Below, piece after piece: positions 43,163 through 46,789 of a DNA stretch of 64,000 nt. The notes below the pieces were generated by a model that made no database searches, was not told the origin of the DNA, and was given only the letters and a program-made list of their open reading frames with translations. Origin of the DNA: Chromatiales bacterium (GTDB lineage: Bacteria; Pseudomonadota; Gammaproteobacteria; JAGRGH01); the NCBI GenBank assembly GCA_020445605.1, contig JAGRGH010000050.1:1-64000 (forward strand), in the 5' to 3' direction. Numbering within the stretch: position 1 is the stretch's first letter; each line of letters starts with the position of its first letter. Position numbers and translations under genes: made by a program.

Positions 43163-43310
43163 GTTCGCACCTCATTGGATTCGATTGCGGCTTTCCGGCA
43201 CATGCGTGCGCGGAGCCGGTAAAAACCGCGATATATTAGCACGTTAACGGGTACGCGCCGACCGTCGTCGTGGGCGCGCCAGTCGCCAGATCTGGGGTCG
43301 TCAGCCACTC

Positions 43311-44153
43311 ATGCCAAGCCCTGCCACGCACGAAACGCGCAGCGTGCTGATCACCGGATGCTCCAGCGGCATCGGGCTCGACGCCGCCCGCACCCTGCGT
43401 GCCCGCGGCTGGCAGGTCGTCGCCTCGGCCCGCGACCGCGCCGCTGTCGAGCGTCTGCGGGCAGAAGGCCTGGATGCCGTGGTCCTGGATGTGGCCGACA
43501 GCACCAGCCTGAAGGCCGGCCTCGCCGCGGCGCTGGAGCGGACCGGCGGCCGGCTCGACGCGCTGTTCAACAACGCCGGCTACGGTCAGCTCGGCGCCAT
43601 CGAGGACCTCGCGCGCGAGGTCTTGCGCGAACAGTTCGAGACCAATTTCTTCGGTGCGATCGAGCTCGGCAATGCCGTCGTGCCGATCATGCGGGCACAG
43701 GGGGCCGGCCGAATTGTGCAGAACAGCTCGGTGCTCGGACTGGTCACCGGGCGCTTCCGCGGTGCGTATTGCGCAACCAAGTACGCGCTGGAGGCAGCCA
43801 GCGACGCCCTGCGGCTGGAACTCGCCGGCTCCGGCGTGTATGTGAGCCTGATCGAACCCGGGCCGACCCTCACGCGTTTCCGCCCCAATGCCCACAAGGT
43901 ATTCCGCCGTACGATCGACTGCGAATCCAGCCCTCATCGGCGGGCCTATTCGGCACTGGACGCCAGGCTGCAAATCGAGGGCCCCGTGCGGCGCGGCACC
44001 GTCGGGCCGGACCGGGTCACGCGCGCCCTGATCCATGCGCTGGAAAGCCCGCGTCCCAAGCCACGCTACGCCGTGCACTGGACGACGTTCGGTGCCGACC
44101 TCGCCCGCCGCCTGCTGCCGACACGCTGGCTGGATCGTCTGCGCACGCGTTGA
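43311..44153 (+). CDS. Short-chain dehydrogenase/reductase
   Basis: 280 residues of the classical SDR fold: NAD(P)-binding 'VLITGCSSGIGLDAARTLRA', 'LFNNAGYGQ' and active-site 'YCATKYALEAASD' (Tyr-x-x-x-Lys) with an upstream Ser in 'QNSSVLG'. The C-terminal part resembles SDRs acting on steroid- or retinol-like and other hydrophobic substrates, but the substrate is unknown. It lies 83 bp upstream of three tiny secreted genes on the same strand. Confidence 0.9.
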   Translation: MPSPATHETRSVLITGCSSGIGLDAARTLRARGWQVVASARDRAAVERLRAEGLDAVVLDVADSTSLKAGLAAALERTGGRLDALFNNAGYGQLGAIEDLAREVLREQFETNFFGAIELGNAVVPIMRAQGAGRIVQNSSVLGLVTGRFRGAYCATKYALEAASDALRLELAGSGVYVSLIEPGPTLTRFRPNAHKVFRRTIDCESSPHRRAYSALDARLQIEGPVRRGTVGPDRVTRALIHALESPRPKPRYAVHWTTFGADLARRLLPTRWLDRLRTR

Positions 44154-44235
44154 CGAGCGCGCGCCCCGACGTTGACCCCGCGATTCGGGCCGACTACCCT
44201 TGATCGAACCTGCGTTCATGACAGGGGTGTGCATA

Positions 44236-44403
44236 ATGAGATTCATCGGCCTGCTTGCAGGCGTTTTGGGGGGATCGGTGGCCACGGCCCAGCCGATCGA
44301 GGCATCCCACGTCCCCGCACTCGATAGCTGGGGACTGGTCGGGATCGGCGCGGCGCTGGGCGTCGCGGGCGTCATTGCCATGATGCGGCTGAAAAAGTCC
44401 TGA
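44236..44403 (+). CDS. Tiny secreted protein with IPTL-CTERM-like tail, paralogue 1
   Basis: A 55-residue protein made of a signal peptide (to about 'VATA'), a seven-residue spacer (QPIEASH), and the tail 'VPALDSWGLVGIGAALGVAG' that ends VIAMMRLKKS. The tail has the plan of the IPTL-CTERM sorting domain (I-P-T-L-x-x-W-G motif, membrane helix, basic end). There is no passenger domain. ATG preceded by AGGGG. Two paralogues follow immediately. Confidence 0.7.
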   Translation: MRFIGLLAGVLGGSVATAQPIEASHVPALDSWGLVGIGAALGVAGVIAMMRLKKS

Positions 44404-44410
44404 GATCAGA

Positions 44411-44593
44411 ATGAAACATTCAATTTCTATCGCCGGTCTGTTCACCCTTATCGGTGCGAATGCAGCGCTCGCAACTGTTGCAGCACCGCCACCAAACGCG
44501 GTTCCGGCACTGGATGGCTGGGGCCTCGCCGGCATCGCCGCGGCGCTCGCCGTCGCCGGACTCCTGACGGCGGCCAAGGTCCGAAAGCGCTGA
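44411..44593 (+). CDS. Tiny secreted protein with IPTL-CTERM-like tail, paralogue 2
   Basis: A 60-residue protein: signal peptide 'MKHSISIAGLFTLIGANAAL' plus A, a Pro-rich spacer (TVAAPPPNA), then 'VPALDGWGLAGIAAALAVAG' and a basic tail ending VRKR. It starts 7 bp after paralogue 1, so the two are co-transcribed. Its body is again limited to about ten residues between the cleavage site and the sorting-like motif. No known function. Confidence 0.7.
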   Translation: MKHSISIAGLFTLIGANAALATVAAPPPNAVPALDGWGLAGIAAALAVAGLLTAAKVRKR

Positions 44594-44731
44594 GCGCCGG
44601 CCAGCGGGGCGAACCGCGTCCGACGCATCCCCCGCGGTTGTCACGCCGGCCCCGGCAGCCTTGCTGAAAAGAGAATCTCGTTGGCCTGCCGGACGACCAG
44701 CGAGCATCAACGGTCCTCACCGGAGAACGTC

Positions 44732-44917
44732 ATGAGCCAGCTTACGTCCCGTCGCCATACCCTCCTGCTCGTCGCGGGATTTTCCGCGCCGGCGTCGGCG
44801 CTGGTGGCCGCCCCGGGTCCGGCGCAGGTGCCGATGCTGGACAGCTGGGGCCTGGTCGGTCTCGGCGTATCGCTCGCCCTCGCCGGATTTATCGCCGCAA
44901 AACGCCTGCGCAGGTAA
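44732..44917 (+). CDS. Tiny secreted protein with IPTL-CTERM-like tail, paralogue 3
   Basis: A 61-residue protein: signal peptide with a twin-Arg-like start ('SRRHTLLLVAGFSAPASALV'), a spacer of about seven residues (APGPAQ), then 'VPMLDSWGLVGLGVSLALAG' and a basic end KRLRR. ATG 44732 has GGAGA five bases before it; a longer frame from 44681 lacks a ribosome site. It is separated from paralogue 2 by 138 bp, perhaps with its own promoter. Confidence 0.68.
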   Translation: MSQLTSRRHTLLLVAGFSAPASALVAAPGPAQVPMLDSWGLVGLGVSLALAGFIAAKRLRR

Positions 44918-44963: not shown

Positions 44964-45995
44964 CTACCGACCGCCTGTCAACGCAAGCCCATCGGGTTCG
45001 GCGCCAGCGCGCCATTGCGTCCGTACCTGAAGTCGATCCAGATCGAGTTCGAGCACGACGCCGCCATGGGCCAGGGCCACAAACGCGGTGCCGACTGATC
45101 CGGGTGCCGCAATCAGGCCGATCGGGACGGGCTTGCGCCCGAGCCAACCGCCCATCGAAATGCCGTTGGCGAGGTCGTAGTAACCCCGCACGTCGATTGC
45201 GCCAATCAGTTCCGCCTCCGGCGTCGAGAACATCAAAACCCGCCCGCCTGCCGCGTCGCTGACCAGGGCGCGAGTTCCCGTCGAATCGAAGGCGACGCGA
45301 ATCGGAAACTCACCCGCGGGGCCACTGCGCACGACGGCCAGCGAATCCGGATCAATCAGGCTCAGCGTGCCCGCCGCACGGTTCACCACCCAGACGATGC
45401 CGGTGGCCGGATGCACTGCAACGCCCTCCGCACCCGCCCCGGTGGGAATCCGGCTGACCACCCGGTGTGTCGCAAGGTCGATCACCGCGACATCCCCATC
45501 CACGATGCTGCTGACGTAGGCGCGATTGCGTCCGGAATCGACCGCCAGCATGTGCGGCAGTGCCTGCGCGGTCGGAATCACCGCCTCAATCCGACCGGCC
45601 GTCGTATCCACGATCAGAACCGCGGCGCTCGCTTCGATACTGACCAGCAACCGCCGATCGTCGAGCCAGGCCAGCCCGTGCGGACGCCGATGGTCGCCGA
45701 GATCGATGCGGGATGGGGCGCCCGACGCAAGCTCGATCAACAGCAGCGAGTTGCCGGCGGCGCGGTCCGGCCCGTATTCGGCGACGACCGCGCGCGCCCC
45801 ATCCGGCGAGACCGCGACTTCGTGCGGTCCCGGCGCCGTCGGCCAGCTTCGCAGCGTCGCGCCGTTGCGTGGATCGAGCGCCGTGACGCTCGCGCCGCTC
45901 TTGTTCACGACCAGCAGTTCCGCGGCCGATGCTGCACCGGCGAAGAGGGTCAGCAGCGCAAACGCCCAGGTCATGGCGTGCCAGAGGACATTCAT
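44964..45995 (-). CDS. YncE/YVTN-type periplasmic beta-propeller
   Basis: 343 residues with a signal peptide ('WAFALLTLFAGAASAAEL') and seven YVTN-like blades, e.g. 'GPHEVAVSPDGARAVVAEYG', 'RRPHGLAWLDDRRLLVSIEA', 'LPHMLAVDSGRNRAYVSSIV' and 'GAEGVAVHPATGIVWVVNRA'. Such propellers bind or present ligands; the function is unspecified. Overlaps the downstream neighbour by four bases. Convergent with the third mini-gene. Confidence 0.88.
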   Translation of the reverse strand: MNVLWHAMTWAFALLTLFAGAASAAELLVVNKSGASVTALDPRNGATLRSWPTAPGPHEVAVSPDGARAVVAEYGPDRAAGNSLLLIELASGAPSRIDLGDHRRPHGLAWLDDRRLLVSIEASAAVLIVDTTAGRIEAVIPTAQALPHMLAVDSGRNRAYVSSIVDGDVAVIDLATHRVVSRIPTGAGAEGVAVHPATGIVWVVNRAAGTLSLIDPDSLAVVRSGPAGEFPIRVAFDSTGTRALVSDAAGGRVLMFSTPEAELIGAIDVRGYYDLANGISMGGWLGRKPVPIGLIAAPGSVGTAFVALAHGGVVLELDLDRLQVRTQWRAGAEPDGLALTGGR

Positions 45996-46789
45996 GCCGG
46001 CCGCGCTCGAAACGGCAGGACCAGCAGGTCGCGCAGCCGGATCGCCGCGGGCAGATCCGCCAGCCCGAAACGCAGGCCCGACTGGCCGGCCGCAGGCTGT
46101 GCGACGTAGGTGCCGAACAGGCGATCCCAGATGCTCAGCACCCCTCCCAGGTTGCTGCCGCCCTCACCCGGCTCGACCGAATGGTGAATGCTGTGCATTG
46201 GCGGCGTCACCAGCACCAGGCGCAGCAGTCGATCCGCCCTGGTCGGAACACGCAGATTGCCATGGGTATAGAAACCGAATGCAATGATCAGCAGTTCGTG
46301 GACGAGCATCGCGATCAGCGGCGGACCCAGCAACGCGGCGACTGCGGAGCGGTAGGCGACCGTGACGACGGTTTCCAGCGGGTGAAAACGCACGCCGGTC
46401 GAGATATCGAAGTCCGCGTCAGCGTGATGCGTGCGGTGCAGGCGCCAGAGCCATGGCAGTCGATGATAGGCAAGGTGCAGCAGATAAAGGCTCAGGTCCA
46501 ACACCAGCCAGGCGCTGAACACCACCCATGGACCGTCGCCAAGCTCAAACCACTGAAACAGGCCAAAGCCATTGGCATTTGCGGCGATCGCAACCCCGAA
46601 TGCCGAGATTGGCGCGGCGAACACGAGCGCAAAATTCATCGCATAGAGCGCGCCATTCACGCGCCAGCGAGGCGCCACCGGCACCAGCGCGGCACGCGCG
46701 GGCCAGAACAGCTCCAGCGCCACGACGAGGATGAACATCCCAAGCGTGGTAACGATCACGCCCAGACCATGAACCTGTTCGATCGGCAT
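45992..46789 (-). CDS. Sterol desaturase/fatty acid hydroxylase family membrane protein
   Basis: 265 residues with about four membrane helices and the His clusters of di-iron membrane hydroxylases: 'HLAYHRLPWLWRLHRTHHAD', 'VRFHPLETV', 'THGNLRVP' and 'PPMHSIHHSVEPGEGGSN'. The product likely hydroxylates or desaturates a lipid; the substrate is unknown. It overlaps the propeller gene by four bases, so the two are co-expressed. Confidence 0.92.
   Translation of the reverse strand: MPIEQVHGLGVIVTTLGMFILVVALELFWPARAALVPVAPRWRVNGALYAMNFALVFAAPISAFGVAIAANANGFGLFQWFELGDGPWVVFSAWLVLDLSLYLLHLAYHRLPWLWRLHRTHHADADFDISTGVRFHPLETVVTVAYRSAVAALLGPPLIAMLVHELLIIAFGFYTHGNLRVPTRADRLLRLVLVTPPMHSIHHSVEPGEGGSNLGGVLSIWDRLFGTYVAQPAAGQSGLRFGLADLPAAIRLRDLLVLPFRARPA

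Follow-up and report, generated by a model that had tools for sequence, protein, structure and literature searches.

Passenger-less mini-proteins with exosortase-type sorting tails, encoded beside membrane hydroxylase genes in a Chromatiales genome, are candidate exosortase H substrates

The window, that is, the whole 64,000-nucleotide stretch of Chromatiales DNA analysed here, carries on its plus strand three tandem genes for very small proteins (hereafter, minis), all of which start with ATG. Mini 1 (44236..44403, 55 aa) consists of a signal peptide, the spacer QPIEASH, the motif VPALDSWGL, a membrane helix and the basic end RLKKS, and the same plan was found in mini 2 (44411..44593, 60 aa; spacer TVAAPPPNA, motif VPALDGWGL, end KVRKR) and mini 3 (44732..44917, 61 aa; spacer AAPGPAQ, motif VPMLDSWGL, end KRLRR). 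The signal peptides were called by eye from a charged start, a hydrophobic core and an A-x-A-type site, and the spacers past the likely signal-peptidase site, of 7, 9 and 7 residues in minis 1, 2 and 3, were delimited in the same way. The ribosome-binding sites AGGGG and GGAG precede mini 1 and mini 3, respectively, and mini 2 starts 7 nt past the stop of mini 1. The identity to mini 1 was 38% for mini 2 and 44% for mini 3. An earlier note on this DNA, made from the sequence alone, had described three tandem genes with a signal peptide, a short spacer, VPxLDxWGL, a helix and a basic end, and this description was confirmed for each of them at the positions given above.

A gene for an SDR-family oxidoreductase (43311..44153, plus strand; Pfam adh_short, 142 bits) lies 82 bp upstream of the trio. 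It scored 344.5 bits against NCBIfam PRK05993, under the cut-off of 387, lies on the same strand as the minis and may be co-transcribed with them. A frame of 381 aa that is open on the minus strand (43236-44381), antisense to both mini 1 and the SDR gene, is probably a shadow ORF. Downstream, on the minus strand and convergent to the trio, a gene for an FA_hydroxylase, or sterol-desaturase-type membrane hydroxylase (45992..46789; PF04116, 93.8 bits), was found at a distance of 1.1 kb, with the histidine motifs that are conserved in seven mini-linked homologues. Between the trio and this hydroxylase lies the gene of a YncE-like beta-propeller protein (44964..45995, minus strand; Pfam YNCE, 37.1 bits), which is on the same strand as the hydroxylase gene and shares 4 bp with its end. 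No sigma-70-like promoter or terminator was conspicuous within the window.

The trio was compared with the known families of sorting signals. In NCBIfam, all three minis matched midcut_by_XrtH (NF033207) best, at 16.6-18 bits (18 for mini 1) versus a cut-off of 45, and these matches spanned only the N-terminal third of the profile (positions about 14-62 of 175). Proteins of this family share with the minis a signal peptide, a short segment, a VP-type motif, a helix and a basic stretch near the N-terminus, but continue past the helix for about 110 residues, in which a further hydrophobic stretch and a C-terminal domain are found. Each member of the trio accordingly resembles a midcut protein of which only the front part is present. 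The earlier note had called the tails IPTL-CTERM-like. Their plan does fit that layout, starting with a signal peptide and closing with the motif, the helix and a basic tail, and a distant relative described below passes the Pfam model, whereas the trio itself stayed under both curated cut-offs: TIGR04174 (20.5) gave 14.8 bits for mini 1, 15.4 for mini 2 and no match for mini 3, and Pfam IPTL-CTERM PF18203 (20.8) gave 6.6, 19.1 and 13.8, respectively. A known IPTL-CTERM normally ends a larger exported passenger, whereas the minis are without one. With a three-row profile built from the trio, its own members scored 96-104 bits and the next best match of the genome, a passenger-bearing tail, scored 32 bits.

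The source genome (3.36-Mb, 63 contigs, 100% complete) was searched for the corresponding machinery and for further IPTL-CTERM proteins, both of which the earlier note had proposed to look for, and both were found. One exosortase H (XrtH) is encoded on contig C49 (TIGR04177, 194.5 bits versus a cut-off of 86), and Cys, Arg and His are visible in the expected motifs of its translation. The xrtH gene adjoins a gene for the XrtH-associated membrane protein XrtH_assoc (NF041730, 171.6 bits), and the pair (L048 / L008, G000:C49:80-82 kb) is distant from the mini loci. Seven passenger-bearing IPTL-CTERM proteins and eight midcut-by-XrtH proteins exceeded their cut-offs in the genome. Five of the latter are encoded in tandem (L043, G000:C40:129320-132725), and their N-terminal parts are strongly conserved, GMIxxEPFARxVPT-like. 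The minis thus share with the IPTL-CTERM (TIGR04174 / PF18203) and XrtH (TIGR04177) system the motif, the helix, the basic C-terminus and an XrtH in the same genome.

The trio, which the earlier note had described as a triplication, belongs to a set of at least 16 passenger-less minis of 49-61 aa at nine loci of the genome, 13 of them outside the trio. Nine further minis (54-61 aa) were traced from matches below threshold and with a profile built from the minis, singly at C57, C51, C63:24k, C40:47k and C49:180k and as pairs at C63:110k and C32:29k. The remaining four (49-53 aa), identified by reading upstream of the C6:47k hydroxylase gene, form a tandem on the minus strand (L122, G000:C6; starts 6200, 5993, 5774 and 5553) whose last member ends 29 bp upstream of that gene, and their motifs are PVSEPN/VPEPN. 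Three of these C6 minis passed Pfam PEP-CTERM PF07589 (24.9, 22.7 and 24.5 bits versus 20.7), the fourth scored 20.6, and one reached the cut-off of TIGR02595. They resemble PEP-CTERM proteins (PF07589 / TIGR02595) in this respect, but differ from them in being passenger-less and in standing four in tandem upstream of an FA_hydroxylase gene. None of the minis reached the midcut-by-XrtH cut-off, those outside the trio scoring up to 27.7 bits; they end after the helix and basic tail, and the midcut C-terminal region is absent. In the L080:1910-2047 region of G000:C10, an ORF of ~80 aa (MSRSPHSRWLVV...VPAYSIPGLALIAAGLSLIAACAYRGRR) is longer than the minis but may be related to them.

All 16 minis start with ATG, and nearly all have a GGAG/GGGG-type ribosome-binding site. 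Their pooled synonymous-codon score was 0.172 nats/codon, as compared with -0.212 (sd 0.043) expected from composition alone and 0.326 for known genes. Selection was judged by pN/pS between paralogues inside the genome. For tandem paralogues, the tails showed a pN of 0.10-0.32 and a pS of 0.47-0.65, and the N-terminal parts showed a pN of 0.31-0.62. On the strength of the ribosome-binding sites, the codon bias and the low pN in the tails, the minis are almost certainly real genes, and the lower pN of the tails than of the N-terminal parts indicates stronger selection on the tail than on the spacer.

The earlier note had taken the SDR gene as the context of the trio, but the recurrent partner turned out to be another enzyme. 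A gene for an FA_hydroxylase (PF04116; 87.7-111.7 bits versus a cut-off of 31) lies near eight of the nine mini loci, and at seven of them it is the next gene downstream of the minis, on the same strand, with a gap of 61 bp (C57), 30 bp (C51), 187 bp (C63:24k), 29 bp (C63:110k), 171 bp (C32), 43 bp (C49) or 29 bp (C6). No hydroxylase gene was found near the mini at C40:46921. The trio is the weakest case for the pairing, its hydroxylase gene being convergent rather than downstream and its same-strand neighbour being the SDR gene. The hydroxylase was the sole recurrent neighbour; neither a receptor gene nor a transporter gene was seen repeatedly near the mini loci, and the remaining neighbours examined vary among them. 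An alignment of the eight neighbouring hydroxylases showed invariant HxxxH, HxxHH and HxxHH columns. Their nearest named family is OlsE (NF052566), which they matched at 62-102 bits, under the equivalog cut-off of 475, and a sequence search with the hydroxylase profile gave no match among solved structures.

The frequency expected by chance was estimated from 20 random 15-kb stretches on contigs known to carry hits, so that the background is if anything overstated. These 300 kb contained three FA_hydroxylase genes, two of which were behind minis and one of which, C32:141967, has no mini and sits behind an apparent RND transporter gene. If about 1% of genes encode such a hydroxylase, at least seven of nine loci would have one by chance with a probability of about 4e-13. 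A functional pairing of the minis with the hydroxylases is very probable. Upstream of 14 related hydroxylase genes on plasmids (8) and viral contigs (6), no mini was found by scanning or with the profile; the sole hydrophobic small ORF there encodes 85 aa and is unlike the minis. A tblastn search of the minis against plasmids gave no match either. In the hydroxylase tree, the mini-less enzyme of the source genome fell together with one from a plasmid (support 99/97), and the enzymes of C57 and C63:24k, both with a mini of the SVP[IV]DSP type, formed a pair (100/96); most other branches lack resolution. No co-evolution was detected between the distances of the minis and those of the hydroxylases (Mantel r 0.147, p 0.27).

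In a search of 369 genomes of the class, minis turned up in only one besides the source, a distant genome designated G327. In this respect the tandem arrangement, for which the earlier note had suggested a look at related genomes, does have a counterpart, but a single one. G327 encodes two minis in tandem (57 and 62 aa), with the motif APALDEWGL (L093:8393-8806, G327:C22), located 18 bp upstream of a gluconate-2-dehydrogenase-3/GMC-oxidoreductase operon, and one of the two passes Pfam IPTL-CTERM (21.9 versus 20.8 bits). The five other genomes of the order of G327 gave no mini at E 1e-4. XrtH exceeded its cut-off in 13 genomes of the class (12 of the 368 besides the source), including G327, and this one independent case inside the XrtH-bearing genomes is suggestive without being proof. 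When genome contigs were searched with a profile of the trio and the G327 pair, a single locus was obtained, in Simplicispira, which was rejected as the match is antisense to other genes.

We give a probability of about 0.5 to the reading in which the minis serve as dedicated substrates of an exosortase and share their cassettes with oxidoreductases that act on lipids. The tails belong to a type that exosortases recognise, the enzyme is encoded in the genome, and recognition by XrtH is probable. The signal peptide would export the N-terminus of the mini, and the tail would anchor it in the inner membrane with the N-terminus out and the C-terminus in. After a cut at the V-P-x-L-D/S-x-x-G-L region, XrtH would hand the stub, which is some 8-15 residues long, to an acceptor, for which a membrane aminolipid is plausible, and the adjoining hydroxylase, or the GMC oxidoreductase in G327, would chemically tailor the lipid or the conjugate. 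The output of a cassette would be a short lipid-bound surface peptide, and minis in tandem, as many as four and each with its own stub, would serve as parallel substrates of one enzyme. We know of no identified acceptor to which exosortases attach their substrates. A lipid as the acceptor or the product is suggested by the repeated pairing with OlsE-like hydroxylases and by the oxidoreductase of G327. OlsE hydroxylates the ornithine in ornithine lipid (PMC3972451), and a link between N-acyl amino acid synthases and PEP-CTERM/exosortase genes has been published (Craig et al. 2011, cited in PMC7293339); an aminolipid acceptor is plausible because of these two precedents.

The strongest rival explanation makes each mini a helper subunit, which, like CydX or AcrZ, would cross the membrane once and stabilise or regulate the adjoining hydroxylase; its exosortase-like tail would be the binding helix or would, alternatively, be trimmed by XrtH for maturation. 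The tight arrangement of minis and hydroxylases in cassettes agrees with such a role, as do the conservation of the tail rather than the spacer and the mini subtype common to the best-supported hydroxylase pair. It accounts less readily for up to four diverged tandem minis per enzyme, for minis before the unrelated GMC-oxidoreductase operon and after the SDR gene, and for homologous hydroxylases elsewhere that have no mini. Several of the tails, moreover, reach curated cut-offs for sorting signals, which a binding helix need not do. With the varying copy number of the diverged minis and the non-hydroxylase partner in G327 both weighing mildly against it, we regard the helper subunit as possible but not probable. 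That the minis have a substrate and tailoring role rather than a helper role was itself put at somewhat short of an even chance.

The earlier note had also raised the release of peptides, and extracellular signals of about 10-15 residues, freed by XrtH, would follow from the layout if this enzyme, which is present, hydrolyses its substrates. This idea was weakened by the observation that the spacers vary without a common sequence and with a pN above that of the conserved tails. As the loci also lack a recurrent receptor or transporter gene, we consider it very improbable. Decoys that compete for XrtH, or leftovers of sorted proteins that have lost their passengers, would explain why the tails are like the N-terminal part of midcut proteins. 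Against this stand the separate start of every mini, the ribosome-binding sites of nearly all of them, their codon usage bias and the purifying selection seen in the tails, as well as the tight length range (49-61 aa), which a gap and not a continuum separates from the midcut proteins of about 180 aa or longer; the repeated linkage to hydroxylases would also be left unexplained, and this origin is very improbable. Hydrophobic small proteins of a holin-like or toxin-like kind with no tie to sorting are the least credible reading, as a sub-cut-off match of mini 1 alone to Phage_holin_3_2 (20.3 bits versus 25) stands against the absence of any phage or antitoxin context and the occurrence of motif, helix and basic tail in 16 genes that lie mostly beside metabolic enzymes.

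Returning to the reading of the minis as exosortase substrates, the components (sorting tails, exosortase H, midcut proteins and FA_hydroxylases) are already known. No description of passenger-less tails at multiple loci in hydroxylase cassettes was found in the literature searched, which included few subscription papers, and no paper there tied a sterol desaturase to an exosortase or to PEP-CTERM. The earlier note, which knew of no description of such a peptide-based system, had not mentioned the midcut-by-XrtH proteins, the best NCBIfam match of each mini in the trio, which already possess a very short segment before the motif. The partner enzymes and OlsE both belong to the PF04116 superfamily, and the partners have conserved His motifs, but they lie far under the equivalog cut-off, and related plasmid hydroxylases have no mini. 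The N-acyl amino acid synthase system (Craig et al. 2011, cited in PMC7293339) likewise places a lipid-amino-acid enzyme beside exosortase-system genes, but the enzyme is of another family and its neighbours are sorting-system genes, not tail-only minis.

The most specific form of the proposal, a ribosomally encoded lipopeptide system in which XrtH would move variable peptides to an aminolipid and the OlsE-like hydroxylase or other oxidoreductase of the cassette would tailor them, is speculative and, in our estimate, rather unlikely; if it were true, some eight such cassettes would run in parallel in one genome. Short ORFs like those of the minis are easily overlooked by gene finders, and the mini-hydroxylase cassettes may therefore be under-annotated. 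The sixteen minimal substrates would provide small natural peptides for mass spectrometry, with a lipid as the candidate acceptor or partner. The findings suggest that sorting tails can be selected without any passenger, and that a known surface-sorting system also serves near-cargo-free peptides within lipid chemistry.
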